Source: a virus. Taken from it: a stretch of DNA of 33,747 nucleotides. Positions 26,044-32,649 of this stretch are shown piece by piece (position 1 is the first letter of the stretch; each line of letters opens with the position of its first letter). Location: the IMG/VR virus record IMGVR_UViG_3300013286_000033, positions 1 through 33,747 of that record; one strand, given 5' to 3'. Below the pieces are notes generated by a model, which did no database searches, was not told where the DNA came from, and worked only from the letters and a program-made list of their open reading frames with translations. The position numbers and the translations under genes were made by a program.

Positions 26044-26132
26044 CCCGCGCGTAGTTAAAAACCCCCAGGTCGTTGGTCAGGCTGTCGCGTGTTGTTTGTG
26101 TTGGTTATTGTCTGCCACTAACTAGACGGTAT

Positions 26133-26149
26133 TGGCTAGCCACTAGCCA
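26133..26149 (+). repeat. 7-bp hairpin before the first GATAGG motif
   Basis: TGGCTAG (26133-26139) and CTAGCCA (26143-26149) flank a 3-base loop. GATAGG follows at 26153-26158, then an ATG at 26163 that opens only a 21-codon frame. Confidence 0.55.
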
Positions 26150-26353
26150 CCAGATAGGCACAATGCTAGGTGAGTGTCTGCTTGTTATAGATACGACAAT
26201 TCGTAGGTGTCTATCTAGTCGCGGTTAGGTGCCGAGTGTGTTGGTGGTTGTTGTTGTGTTTGGCGTGTCTTATTGTGGGTGAATTCTTGTGATCTGTTTA
26301 CCGGAATTTACTTGTGGTTGTTGGTTGAATTCTAGAGCTTGACCGGTGCCGCA

Positions 26354-26389
26354 AAATTTTTTTATTTTTTTAGTGTTTATTGTGGACAG
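26354..26389 (+). other. T-tract and DnaA-box-like site (candidate origin elements)
   Basis: An AAAA plus T-rich run at 26354-26371 could unwind easily. TGTGGACAG at 26381-26389 differs by one base from the reverse complement of the actinobacterial DnaA box TTGTCCACA. A single box is weak evidence. Confidence 0.35.
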
Positions 26390-26463
26390 TTCGTGTCTAA
26401 TCGCGTATGGTTTAGGTATTGGCTAGCTATTAGGGGTTAGTCGCTTATAGATAGGTAAATAAA

Positions 26464-26541
26464 ATGACTAAGAATACTGAAGAAAAATTCAGCCGCGTTT
26501 GCCTAGCGCTTGAATTCTATTTAGTGCTACTTAGTGCCTAA
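26464..26541 (+). CDS. Possible 25-aa leader peptide
   Basis: The ORF runs from ATG 26464 to TAA 26541, starts MTKNTEEKFSRVCL and ends with a hydrophobic FYLVLLSA. It follows GATAGG with an 8-base gap, the same arrangement as the larger early genes. It could be a leader peptide, a tiny protein or a chance ORF. Nothing else supports it. Confidence 0.35.
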   Translation: MTKNTEEKFSRVCLALEFYLVLLSA

Positions 26542-26614
26542 TTGTGGGCGCGTGTCCGTTGTCGTGTTGATTCTTGACACGATAGCGGGCGCGGGTTTAC
26601 CATTAACCCAATAC

Positions 26615-26639
26615 TCCGACACGGGGACGCCGTGCCGGA
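26615..26639 (+). repeat. 10-bp hairpin (one mismatch) before the 26666 gene
   Basis: TCCGACACGG (26615-26624) pairs with CCGTGCCGGA (26630-26639), apart from one A/C mismatch, around a 5-base loop. It lies 9 bases ahead of GATAGG (26649-26654). Confidence 0.6.
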
Positions 26640-26665
26640 TCTTTATCAGATAGGAATGATTAAGA

Positions 26666-27082
26666 ATGACAACAGAAACACATGACGCGCCTACGGCGCA
26701 ACAATTGCCCGACACGGCTACGGCGCGCATTAACCAGGTTATCGAGATTACGGCGCGAAATTGGTTTGATAAGTCTGGCGGGAATACTTACTATGCGGCA
26801 TATGTAAACGTTTGGAATAGTGCGGAATATCAAGGTTGTGAGCGGTTTATTTTACCCTTTAGTATTGGCAGCGAGAGTCAAGGTAAATATGACGGTTTGC
26901 GACAGTTGTTCAAGTTGGGCCTAATACCTAGTGAGCGTGAGCATGAGCTACGCGCGGCCGGTATTTTAGTGTTATTTAATGCTAGTGATCGGCCTAAGCG
27001 GGATCTGCCTACGGTTTCATCGTGTGAGCGTGCGGGCATGCCACGCGTGGCGCCTAATGTGCCGGTATTCATTGCTAATTAG
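26666..27082 (+). CDS. Early protein of unknown function, 138 aa
   Basis: This is the first substantial rightward gene. A disordered Thr/Ala-rich N-terminus (about 20 residues) is followed by a beta-rich core (INQVIEITARNWFDKSGGN, YYAAYVNVWNS, CERFILPFSIGS) and a helical segment (GLRQLFKLGLIPSEREHEL). The alternation suggests a small OB- or beta-barrel-type fold, but no family was recognised. The start is placed 11 bases after GATAGG. Composition is rich in GCG/CGC triplets, unlike the late genes. Expression is likely early because it opens the operon. Confidence 0.65.
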   Translation: MTTETHDAPTAQQLPDTATARINQVIEITARNWFDKSGGNTYYAAYVNVWNSAEYQGCERFILPFSIGSESQGKYDGLRQLFKLGLIPSEREHELRAAGILVLFNASDRPKRDLPTVSSCERAGMPRVAPNVPVFIAN

Positions 27083-27089
27083 TTAGCGA

Positions 27090-27126
27090 TAGTCAGATAT
27101 CGGCGCTTGCTGTCGGTATCTGGCTA
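27090..27126 (+). promoter_or_regulatory. 15-bp intergenic RNA hairpin before clamp-like gene
   Basis: Bases 27090-27104 pair with 27112-27126 around a 7-base loop. Twelve pairs are Watson-Crick and three are G-U, all compatible with an RNA stem. There is no T-run. GATAGG (27158-27163) and the next start follow. Confidence 0.6.
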
Positions 27127-27173
27127 CCGTTACCTAATCGGGGTTGCGGGTTAGATAGATAGGATCTAAGAAT

Positions 27174-27752
27174 ATGGAAGAATTAACAATTAACGCGGGC
27201 GTACTGCATGAACTTTTAACGGGCGCGTGTGTAGCTGTAGCGGGCGCTAAAGATACGCGGGCGGCGCTTACGGCGGTACAATTAACGGCTAAGCGCGACA
27301 CGGTACGCGCAACGGGTACTAATGGGTTTAAGTTAGCTTATGGCGAATACAAGTTAGCCGATATGCGCGAGTACAGTTTCGGGGTATTGTTACCCGCGAC
27401 AGAATTAAAAAATGTGCTAACACTATTGAAGACACATAAGCGCGACAATATAACCGTGTCCGAGAATGGCATATTTGTAGTTGCCGGAAACGTAATTGCG
27501 GCTACGCCGTTATTGTCGAATTATCCCAACATTGACGATATTATTCCGACAGAATGGGCGCTACCTACGGGCGCGGGCGTACCGGCGCTTAGTTTTGATC
27601 CCGTAGTGCTGTCCGATATGGCTAAAATTCCGAACACGTCCAAGCGGGTTAGCGTTTATTTTAATTATGAAAAATTTGCTAATCTGGCGATGTGGAATAA
27701 CGATTCCGGCGTATCCTGGCGTTATGTGTTTATGCGCTTAAAGTCTGCCTAG
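27174..27752 (+). CDS. Short sliding-clamp (DnaN)-like protein
   Basis: The 192-aa protein resembles part of the bacterial DNA polymerase III beta subunit. ALTAVQLTAKRDTVRATGTNGFKLAYGEYKL (residues 31-61) matches the clamp repeat in which a strand pair precedes AT(D/N)GxRLA. VLLPATELKNVLTLLK (71-86) and SNYPNIDDIIP (115-125) match the region ending in NYPDYxxxIP. Cellular clamps have three such domains in about 370 aa; here there is about one complete repeat plus part of another. It could be a phage clamp that assembles from more subunits, or a host-clamp mimic. The start lies 10 bases after GATAGG. Confidence 0.65.
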   Translation: MEELTINAGVLHELLTGACVAVAGAKDTRAALTAVQLTAKRDTVRATGTNGFKLAYGEYKLADMREYSFGVLLPATELKNVLTLLKTHKRDNITVSENGIFVVAGNVIAATPLLSNYPNIDDIIPTEWALPTGAGVPALSFDPVVLSDMAKIPNTSKRVSVYFNYEKFANLAMWNNDSGVSWRYVFMRLKSA

Positions 27753-27763
27753 TGTCGGTTAGT

Positions 27764-27831
27764 TAGGCACTAGCACCTAATTGTTAGTGCCTAGCTATCT
27801 GGCAGATAGTCAGAATCACGCCTACGGCGTG
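27764..27831 (+). promoter_or_regulatory. Three tandem intergenic hairpins
   Basis: In one gap: TAGGCACTA/TAGTGCCTA (27764-27772, 27785-27793), the quasi-palindrome CTATCTG-G-CAGATAG (27795-27809), and CACGCC-TAC-GGCGTG (27817-27831), all with perfect arms. GATAGG (27838-27843) and the next start follow. No terminator T-run is present, so transcription probably continues. Confidence 0.65.
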
Positions 27832-27854
27832 GCAATAGATAGGGATAGATAAAC

Positions 27855-28052
27855 ATGGGGCAGATATTAGATAGTGACTATTCGGGCGGGGATCTCGCCG
27901 AATACGTCACGGCAGCGAATGGCGAGATAGTAGCGCCGGATCACGCCGGCAGACTACGCGACACATTAGGCCGTTACGGGTATCGGGGGCATTTCACGGG
28001 CGCTTATATATGCTACACGTGCGGGCATATGTGCGAATGTGGTGATTACTAA
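27855..28052 (+). CDS. 65-aa protein with C-terminal Cys cluster
   Basis: The C-terminal CYTCGHMCECGDY holds four Cys and one His within 10 residues, consistent with a small Zn site. The N-terminal 45 residues are acidic and ungapped (MGQILDSDYSGGDLAEY). It starts 11 bases after GATAGG, and its stop overlaps the next start as TAATG. Function unknown; a small DNA- or protein-binding regulator is possible. Confidence 0.6.
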   Translation: MGQILDSDYSGGDLAEYVTAANGEIVAPDHAGRLRDTLGRYGYRGHFTGAYICYTCGHMCECGDY

Positions 28053-28306
28053 TGAGAGATCCACAATTCACTACTAAGCGCGGCACACTAACGGCATATG
28101 CGCTTATGTGCGGTTATATACAGCGTCAAGAAATTGGCGCTAATAGCGTGACACTAGGCGGGCAAGGTGCGGGGAATTATTACCCATATTATGTAACAAT
28201 GGCTAGTAATGCCGGCATAGTCTCGCATGAGTGCTATCTAACTTTACTAGACGCTAGGCGCGCTTATGCGCTAGCTTGTCGAGAATTGGCTATCGTAACC
28301 GCCTAA
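28052..28306 (+). CDS. Early protein of unknown function, 84 aa
   Basis: It is coupled to the previous gene by TAATG. The sequence combines a beta-like segment (SVTLGGQGAGNYYPYYVTMAS) and a C-terminal helix (LTLLDARRAYALACRELAIV), with no strong charge bias and three Cys at scattered positions. No family was recognised. Confidence 0.6.
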   Translation: MRDPQFTTKRGTLTAYALMCGYIQRQEIGANSVTLGGQGAGNYYPYYVTMASNAGIVSHECYLTLLDARRAYALACRELAIVTA

Positions 28307-28322
28307 TCTGTCGCCGGATAGT

Positions 28323-28357
28323 CTGGCATTAACTCATCTATTTGGGGTTAGTGTCAG
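28323..28357 (+). promoter_or_regulatory. 13-bp intergenic RNA hairpin
   Basis: Bases 28323-28335 pair with 28345-28357 around a 9-base loop. Ten pairs are Watson-Crick and three are G-U. It is the same kind of element as at 27090 and lies between two small early genes. Confidence 0.55.
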
Positions 28358-28404
28358 GCTACCTAGCCGGCAGCTAGGGCAACACATTGAAAGAATCAAG
28401 CATT

Positions 28405-28569
28405 ATGGCCAATAACGACACGCCTACGCCACGACACGGCTACGACGTGACCAGTGAAGCGACAGACCTACGCCGCGAGCCGGCGGGTGAGGGTATGGGT
28501 ATTAACACGACACGCCTACGCCGTGAGCCAGCTTTGGCTTATTGTTATGTGGCCGAGTGGTGCCAGTAG
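28405..28569 (+). CDS. Possible 54-aa early protein
   Basis: It starts MANNDTPTPRHGYD at ATG 28405. It contains two RREPA blocks that arise from repeats of a CCTACGCCG-type DNA word, and ends ALAYCYVAEWCQ. Support is weak: no GATAGG or strong ribosome site is present, and the coding part is built largely from the dispersed repeat. It could be spurious. Confidence 0.4.
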   Translation: MANNDTPTPRHGYDVTSEATDLRREPAGEGMGINTTRLRREPALAYCYVAEWCQ

Positions 28570-29009: not shown

Positions 29010-29188
29010 TGGCTAAATGGCAAGCGAGTAAGTCGGATATGTCGCCACGTAAGGGCTACATTCCAGAGATCAAAAAACCGATAATCTGCTACTGCCCTAA
29101 TGGGGTATGGTGCGATGTCGAAGAGCACGATGATGAAAGTCACGATAATTGTAATTTATCTGACTGTAAAGAATGTGACGGTAAATAA
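29009..29188 (+). CDS. 59-aa Cys/His-rich protein
   Basis: The N-terminal 25 residues are basic (MAKWQASKSDMSPRKGYIP). Then come CYC (27-29), Cys35, two His in EEHDDESHDN, and Cys48, Cys53 and Cys56 (CNLSDCKEC). Enough ligands are present for one or two metal sites. TAATG joins it to the WhiB-like gene, and the pair may be made together. No family was recognised. Confidence 0.6.
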   Translation: MAKWQASKSDMSPRKGYIPEIKKPIICYCPNGVWCDVEEHDDESHDNCNLSDCKECDGK

Positions 29189-29793
29189 TGAGTAAACCAA
29201 GAATAGGTACCGCTGTAACCGTAGGGCTAGAAGCCGGTATTGTGGAACACATTACCGTCAATAACGGTAACACACTTTACATAGTCCAAACCGATACTAG
29301 GCGTGTAGCCGTCACGGAAGCTGGGCTAGAGCGCTCTAACGCGCTACTCAGTAATAAAGAATTAAACAAGATAGATAGGGCAGCTGACTCGCGTAAACCG
29401 CTAGCGCATGCCCTATTGTTGGCTATTAAACCTGATAGGGATCCTATTTGGTATGACGCAGCATGTAATGGCGATTCTGATCCCGAAGCGTGGTGGCTAG
29501 ATTTCAACATCGAAAACATTGACATTCCCCGCTTGGGGCGCGCTCTCACTATGTGTGGTACATGCCCTGTAAAGGAACAGTGCTTACAAGTAGGCCTATC
29601 GGATAGCGAAATAAATACCGGTATTTGGGGTGGCATGCTACCTGGCGAACGGATCATCGCTCGTTATGGCGCACCTAGACGTACTCGTGGCCAGCGCGAC
29701 AAAATGGCAACAGCTGTCAAGGTTCGGCAACGTGTCGAACTTTGGTTACATCAACAATTACGGAAGGAATTTACGACATGGTCAAACAAGTAG
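29188..29793 (+). CDS. WhiB-like Fe-S transcription regulator with N-terminal extension
   Basis: The protein has 201 aa. The WhiB core at about residues 86-160 has Cys93, then CGTC (Cys123, Cys126) and Cys132, the four ligands of a [4Fe-4S] cluster, followed by GIWGG (145-149) and the basic PGERIIARY/RRTRGQR segment. WhiB-like proteins bind the principal sigma factor and alter promoter choice; phage copies are known to redirect or repress host WhiB programmes. Residues 1-50 form an extra small beta-rich domain (TAVTVGLEAGIVEHITV, TLYIVQTDTRRVAVTE) not usual in the family. This gene is the strongest evidence for an actinobacterial host. Confidence 0.85.
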   Translation: MSKPRIGTAVTVGLEAGIVEHITVNNGNTLYIVQTDTRRVAVTEAGLERSNALLSNKELNKIDRAADSRKPLAHALLLAIKPDRDPIWYDAACNGDSDPEAWWLDFNIENIDIPRLGRALTMCGTCPVKEQCLQVGLSDSEINTGIWGGMLPGERIIARYGAPRRTRGQRDKMATAVKVRQRVELWLHQQLRKEFTTWSNK

Positions 29794-31830: not shown

Positions 31831-32649
31831 TTATTCGGTTTCTGGTTCATCGTCAAAGTCCACAAAGCAACCGCAACCGCCGAGGTCAAAGTCGTCAATG
31901 AGTGAAGGTTCTGATGTTACTTGTTTTCTTAATTCTTGTAATGTGATGTATTTTGTTTCCCCGTCTCGCTGTTGCTTCAAGATAGAAACATCTCTACCGA
32001 GATAATCCCGCATCTTTTGTTCTTGGTTTTCCCACTCTGCGTAGCGTTCTGGCATAAGGTATAAAAGTTTCTTAAACTGTCCTTGGCCAGCACGAACGCA
32101 ACCACCACCACAGTTGTTATGGGCAAAGCCCATACCGTACAGCCTGGGAACTTCAAGACGTTCATCTTTAGCCCAAGCAATTAGTTGTGGTTTAGCCAAA
32201 TAGGGTTTATCGGTTAATGGTGCTTCTGCTTTGTATGGTAAATAGTTTTTAACAATAGATGGCAAACGGTGCGTTTCTGTCCAGTCAATACCAACATAGA
32301 CAATAGTATCTTCGGGATCGCAGTTATCCTCTAGCCATTTACGAGCTGGTTTTTGTTTCAATTCGTGTGAACAATTTGCTAAACGGGAGTTACCTAAATA
32401 ACGTTTATCCTTAAACACTTCCCAAATGTCTTTACCAGCGTTGAGGTAAATGTATTGTCCACCAATGTTGGCTACGGCATCGTCAATGAACCGATAAGTA
32501 TCTTCATCTTCGCCCACATGAACTGAAGGGTTATGTCCTTTAACGTCAGAGAATACTAGATACAGATCTTCTGTACCGTATTTTTCCGCAACTCGTTTAG
32601 CGCAGGCCCAAGAGCCTATGCCGCCAGAGAACATAACTACATGTTTCAT
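31831..32649 (-). CDS. PP-loop ATPase, PAPS-reductase-like
   Basis: The protein has 272 aa. The PP-loop SGGIGSW (8-14) binds ATP/adenylated substrate in the adenine-nucleotide alpha-hydrolase superfamily. Cys93 (ANCSHELKQKP) sits where PAPS reductases have their conserved segment. A second Cys pair (NNCGGGC, 180 and 184) and a C-terminal GGCGC (258-261) are unusual. In phages such proteins are usually annotated as PAPS reductases, but sulfur transfer or base modification is equally possible. Neighbours (phosphoesterase, Nmad1-like) favour a nucleotide-related role by inference. Confidence 0.72.
   Translation of the reverse strand: MKHVVMFSGGIGSWACAKRVAEKYGTEDLYLVFSDVKGHNPSVHVGEDEDTYRFIDDAVANIGGQYIYLNAGKDIWEVFKDKRYLGNSRLANCSHELKQKPARKWLEDNCDPEDTIVYVGIDWTETHRLPSIVKNYLPYKAEAPLTDKPYLAKPQLIAWAKDERLEVPRLYGMGFAHNNCGGGCVRAGQGQFKKLLYLMPERYAEWENQEQKMRDYLGRDVSILKQQRDGETKYITLQELRKQVTSEPSLIDDFDLGGCGCFVDFDDEPETE

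Follow-up and report, generated by a model that had tools for sequence, protein, structure and literature searches.

The stretch of DNA analysed here, hereafter the window, is a 33,747-base virus record that falls ~6.3 kb short of a genome of roughly 40 kb. Its closest near-complete relative is G001 (39.7 kb, terminase 96% identical), which in the ~6.3-kb stretch encodes a PD-(D/E)XK exonuclease, a DnaB-like ATPase, a resolvase-like nuclease, a CHC2 zinc-finger protein and a toprim primase. No recognised polymerase was found in the window, nor in the part of G001 that matches the missing ~6.3 kb, so the original prediction's remark that no polymerase gene is in view holds for the window and for G001's extra sequence as well.

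Beside the terminase lies a variable segment that holds the clamp-like gene (Table 1). Its flanks match G001 at about 71–90%, the G001 genes at this place are unrelated, and by sequence comparison the segment is a putative cargo-like hot spot. An 11-base sequence, CGCCTACGSCG (with at most one mismatch), occurs nine times in the window against 0.3 expected; 7/9 copies fall within 26688–28523, and those in the variable segment are found both within and between genes. The protein encoded upstream of the clamp-like gene has no relative in the loci that were compared. Elsewhere, positions 31831–32649 encode a protein that strongly matches phosphoadenosine phosphosulfate reductase-like proteins of phages (phrog_424, E 5e-55; no Pfam match above the cut-off), and positions 29188–29793 encode a 201-aa protein with a WhiB domain (residues 90–155) behind an N-terminal part of ~85 residues without a Pfam match. 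The window also has a sigma-factor gene, and the best-covered named matches of its terminase are in Streptomyces phages. The WhiB-type gene, the sigma-factor gene and the terminase matches together point to an actinobacterial host, and the record probably represents a freshwater virus of bacteria.

Table 1. Features of the locus and of related loci (positions in the window unless another locus is named).
Feature	Position	Strand	Basis or remark
Variable segment beside the terminase, holding the clamp-like gene	26076..28553		No DNA similarity to G001
Upstream gene P0002, 138 aa	26666..27082	+, same direction	Weak match to phrog_6246
Short clamp-like gene, 192 aa	27174..27752, stop included	+	ORF, profile matches, predicted fold
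Clamp domain II, residues 1–127, two beta-alpha-beta-beta-beta units	27174..27554	+	PF02767; E. coli 129–252; model strands and helices 3–109
Second half of clamp domain III, residues 134–192, one unit	27573..27749	+	Half-domain profile test; E. coli 309–366; model
Pocket element T-N-G-F-K-L, residues 49–54, E. coli T172–L177	27318..27335	+	Alignment; residue list of PMC11139829
Pocket element Y-P-N-I-D-D-I-I-P, residues 117–125, around E. coli P242–V247	27522..27548	+	Alignment
Pocket element F-D-P-V-V-L, residues 141–146, around E. coli N320–Y323, both changed	27594..27611	+	Alignment
C-terminal pocket element V-F-M-R-L-K, residues 185–190, E. coli V360–R365	27726..27743	+	Alignment
FtsK-gamma fusion genes	L252:3989-5035 and L255:2986-4035		Gordonia phages

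Domain architecture of the short clamp

The coordinates, length and ATG start given for the clamp-like ORF in the original prediction were borne out, and an AGGA that ends 9 bases upstream of the ATG is a plausible ribosome-binding site. The protein matches the central domain of the clamp in Pfam (PF02767, DNA_pol3_beta_2; E 1e-10 over residues 7–118, above the cut-off) and the dnaN model TIGR00663 (E 5e-16, residues 2–127 against model positions 125–251, below the equivalog cut-off), and among PDB clamps it matches 4tr6 (E 2.5e-6) and 6man (E 3e-4). A search of the window with the N-terminal clamp domain (PF00712) gave no match, because the protein has the central domain and not the N-terminal one. 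Together with the predicted fold described below, these matches mark the protein as a genuine relative of the beta clamp (DnaN), a relation far above chance. Its length had been put at half the bacterial norm, and this also held: in 98 of 100 cellular genomes sampled from the phylum of Mycobacterium, the clamp family was found in open frames of at least 345 aa, with the exception of one 185-aa frame at a contig edge.

Several comparisons located the part of the clamp that is kept. In a profile–profile comparison with full clamps (E 3e-22), E. coli positions 130–367 were covered except for a single gap of ~60 residues, which falls in domain III, in its first half, and a PDB profile search matched E. 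coli beta in two pieces, 129–252 and 309–366. A profile of the C-terminal unit, built from 13 short proteins, scored 24.0, 20.2, 16.9 and 14.9 bits on IIIb, the second half of domain III, in four full-length clamps, against 2.2 bits for the best other half-domain and 6.1 for the best of 200 shuffled sequences. This half-domain test replaced an earlier placement of the C-terminal unit by adding each short protein to the full-length alignment, which was inconsistent because of internal repeats. The DnaN-domain HMM comparison that the original prediction had proposed as a check is given by the PF02767 and TIGR00663 matches on the first part and by the IIIb test of the family's C-terminal unit.

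AlphaFold2 modelled the window protein as three units (pLDDT 76.3, pTM 0.77), with a confident domain II fold and a weak spot at residues 129–136 (pLDDT <50), where domain II joins the last unit. The model of the relative L078 also has three units and is more confident (pLDDT 84.2, pTM 0.83). With VIA, residues 1–189 of the window protein were placed on E. coli beta 125–364 (176 aligned, 2.6 Å, Z 16.6) and L078 was likewise placed on E. coli beta (184 aligned, 3.1 Å, Z 18.3), so the structural match to a clamp fold on which the original prediction staked its case was found. Because the clamp domains are alike, some VIA rows superpose on domains I–II instead of II–III, which leaves the sequence tests as the basis for assigning the protein to II + IIIb. 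The VIA matches listed are clamps only and say nothing on other clamp-fold families; one of them, PDB 7evp, is a beta clamp bound by phage Gp168.

On these profiles and models, the protein is best described as domain II followed by just one half of domain III, the second, and not as a small whole clamp. It shares with the bacterial beta clamp (E. coli beta, PDB 2pol; M. tuberculosis, 3p16) the domain II + IIIb fold, the profile match and the segments of the clamp-binding-motif (CBM) pocket, but it has 192 aa instead of ~366–400 and lacks domain I and the first half of domain III, falling short of the three complete domains per chain of DnaN. The T4 gp45 chain, at ~228 aa, is of similar length. 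However, gp45 has two domains per chain in a trimeric ring (PMC9690074), whereas the window protein has 1.5 domains and matches DnaN; its models contain three units, not the four expected from two full domains of the gp45/PCNA type.

Ring interface and clamp-binding-motif pocket

Bacterial sliding clamps are thought of as rings, and the original prediction allowed for a ring of three or four copies of the short protein. The architecture speaks against this, as each chain has three units rather than two whole domains and both known sides of the interface are missing. In DnaN, domain I of one subunit meets the first half of domain III of the other, and the published interface residues (I78, R103, F106, I272, L273, E298 and E304; PMC11139829) all seven fall in those missing segments, leaving none in the short form. 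The protein would then be monomeric, or would at least form no beta-type ring. An unconventional ring, in which several copies close round DNA through new interfaces as a minimal processivity clamp for host polymerase III, appears unlikely to us. It would have the right arithmetic, since four chains of three units would give the usual twelve units of known clamp rings, and lysines K79 and K86 (second helix) and K151 recur in the closest relatives. A precedent may exist in E. coli beta*, a UV-inducible short DnaN form of about 26 kDa that lacks domain I, as the window protein does, and is reportedly trimeric, but beta* keeps all of domain III. Apart from the absence of both sides of the known interface, geometry is an obstacle: neighbouring units in known clamps are related by a pseudo-twofold axis, and if each chain has three of them, every second chain would have to be turned over. 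Moreover, the strand and helix that open the second half of domain II have no equivalent in the aligned enterophage copies.

The CBM pocket shows the opposite pattern to the interface. Its 18 residues in E. coli numbering (R152, L155, T172, G174, H175, R176, L177, P242, R246, V247, N320, Y323, V344, V360, M362, P363, M364 and R365; PMC11139829) all map to segments kept in the short form. Across ten short proteins, identity to E. coli beta is 48% in the pocket compared with 14% elsewhere, a level reached by none of 10000 random position sets, and in the copy of E. coli phage Bas81 the pocket is identical at 16/18 positions, against 21% identity elsewhere. As full-length phage clamps show a similar contrast (44–61% in the pocket, 14–17% elsewhere), pocket conservation alone does not tell whether a clamp forms a ring.

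The window copy belongs to the more divergent members. All pocket segments are present and 8/18 positions are identical to E. coli, and four residues that nearly every other protein retains are replaced in it (P363 by R, N320 by D, Y323 by V and R365 by K); the equivalent of P363 is proline in every other aligned protein, and the C-terminal MPxR motif found in all other short members aligned reads MRLK here. Because of this divergence, the window copy's own activity is less certain. These substitutions, together with the sporadic occurrence of the gene in its phage group (see below), would suit a situation in which the family is functional and the window copy is decaying or retargeted, no longer binding the usual motifs. 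We consider this quite improbable given the intact 192-aa frame with its plausible ribosome-binding site and the confident domain II fold in the AlphaFold2 model. The further suggestion in the original prediction, that the protein occupies host-clamp contacts, fits the finding that the part kept is the clamp's contact pocket; the binding itself we infer. A search for a phage-encoded partner with a CBM gave four loose matches to the motif where 1.2 were expected, and none of them is convincing; a QLGLY sequence in the sister exonuclease, considered as a CBM, is probably that enzyme's own nuclease motif.

Relatives, DNA tethers and database labels

Direct searches with the window protein found no match in cultured phages or in IMG/VR, and relatives were reached through the terminase and then by profile. 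With 403 terminase relatives in IMG/VR, the window belongs to a large group of phages, and sister contigs carry related short clamps of 190–203 aa near the terminase (L005, L016, L019, L078 and L080). Its occurrence is sporadic: of the 33 terminase loci whose relevant flank measures 3 kb or more, L005, L019, L078 and L080 carry the gene, and a further copy is in L016, which has less flank. The window copy matches phrog_3007 (E 3.7e-5, residues 13–154) and phrog_12598 (E 0.015, residues 24–157), while for L078 and L005 the phrog_12598 matches (E 1.3e-9 and 1.7e-10, respectively) reach the C-terminus. The domain II + IIIb architecture is common to the window copy and to this family, members of which include proteins of Klebsiella phage ZC2, Shigella phage Sf11, Rhodococcus phage REQ2 (Orf51), Gordonia phage Matteo (gp40) and Mycobacterium phage Tortellini (gp57). 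These relatives have the same 1.5 domains and a similar length (178–266 aa) but low identity to the window copy when aligned (about 16–32%). An enterophage branch comprises 290 records, and actinophage short clamps occur in phages of Gordonia, Rhodococcus and Mycobacterium. In cultured relatives the short clamp is found in genomes with RecE/RecT, exonuclease VIII, Sak4 or SSB genes, and Sf11 has a primase-polymerase in the same genome.

Enterophage copies are under purifying selection (dN/dS 0.06–0.12), and the L078/L080 pair gives 0.32. The nearest full clamps are mycobacterial for the actinophage copies and enterobacterial for the enterophage copies. Several independent origins of the short form were considered and are not required by the domain II tree, which has long branches throughout and does not reject a single origin (AU p 0.33).

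Some relatives carry additional segments that would tie the clamp to DNA. Gordonia phage proteins Bowser gp53 and Nyceirae gp49 consist of a short clamp (short-clamp profile over residues 7–215 and 8–226, respectively) followed by FtsK gamma (PF09397, E 3.4e-23 and 3.1e-19), a DNA-binding winged helix, and 22 Gordonia phage records match at least 80% of this fusion. Database entries call the fusion proteins FtsK-like translocase, sliding clamp or RusA, although FtsK gamma is the only FtsK domain that was matched in them. The C-terminal tails of REQ2 and Tortellini are rich in lysine (17 K/R in 71 residues and 11 in 45, respectively), and Matteo and Horus have basic N-terminal tails. Unlike several of these relatives, the window copy has neither a basic tail nor an FtsK-gamma or other DNA-binding fusion, and its pocket is more divergent.

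The gene type is already in databases, under both clamp and RusA labels. Submitters often label the short clamps DNA polymerase III sliding clamp or beta subunit, and RefSeq (mostly) and PHROGs (phrog_3007, phrog_12598) name them RusA-like Holliday junction resolvase (e.g., L114, L139, L254). That the window protein is such a resolvase derives from these labels and has, in our view, next to no chance of being right: it is contradicted by the clamp fold and the clamp sequence, no RusA profile in Pfam or NCBIfam matched up to E 1, and Tortellini has a separate RusA gene two genes downstream of its short clamp. We therefore rejected a RusA identity, and the label on the short clamp-like proteins is apparently an error. 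In the part of the literature covered by our search, we found no paper on short phage clamps, the II + IIIb architecture, a ring-less reading or the FtsK-gamma fusion.

A possible role in capturing host proteins

The reading that we give an even chance is that the protein is a ring-less derivative of the beta clamp whose docking pocket captures host proteins with CBMs and which forms no beta-type ring. Its basis is the computed architecture, the lost interface segments, the family-wide pocket and the tethers in relatives. In outline, the clamp would have been cut down to II + IIIb, the module that forms the CBM pocket; the protein would bind the CBMs of, for instance, host DnaE1, the delta subunit of the clamp loader or repair enzymes, and would do this without itself passing through the clamp loader; and host enzymes could in this way be held at, or withheld from, the DNA of a phage that has no polymerase of its own. 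Since FtsK gamma or basic tails in relatives would anchor the pocket on DNA, we lean towards an adaptor role. A diversion of the host replisome, as had been proposed, is plausible. A more specific version is put forward tentatively, as possible rather than probable: a loader-independent half clamp, in which FtsK gamma, basic tails or partner proteins tie the CBM-docking module to DNA and recruit host polymerases and repair enzymes. Herpesvirus UL42, a clamp-like viral processivity factor that is monomeric and not ring-shaped (PMC9690074), is what the protein may work like. UL42 differs in that it binds DNA directly, by a basic face, and works for a polymerase of its own.

One variant of the same mechanism would be a decoy, weakening the host replisome. 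As a soluble decoy, the protein would be a competitor of the host clamp, binding polymerase III and clamp-loader delta in its place and so shutting down host replication during infection. The retained pocket is consistent with this, and a plasmid for a monomeric E. coli clamp (I272A-L273A, cleft intact) could not be cloned, which its authors read as a dominant negative effect (PMC3022782), a precedent for the ring-less capture reading as well; furthermore, overexpression of the full-length mycobacteriophage clamp Waterfoul gp48 slows host growth (PMC9339283). Nevertheless, we regard the decoy as improbable, considering that the window and G001 have no recognised polymerase, such that a phage that blocks host polymerase III would, without some timing of the block, stop its own replication too, and that the DNA tethers in relatives argue for action on DNA.

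If the ring-less capture of host proteins is true, a widespread phage family splits the 'tool belt' role of the clamp from encirclement, and this would be one way for polymerase-less phages to steer the host replisome. In principle, clamp inhibitors made by rival phages could also be blunted by a free pocket. The 'RusA-like Holliday junction resolvase' label on many phage proteins is also corrected, and the question of how such phages steer the host is testable in model phages, such as E. coli phage Bas81 and the Gordonia phages.
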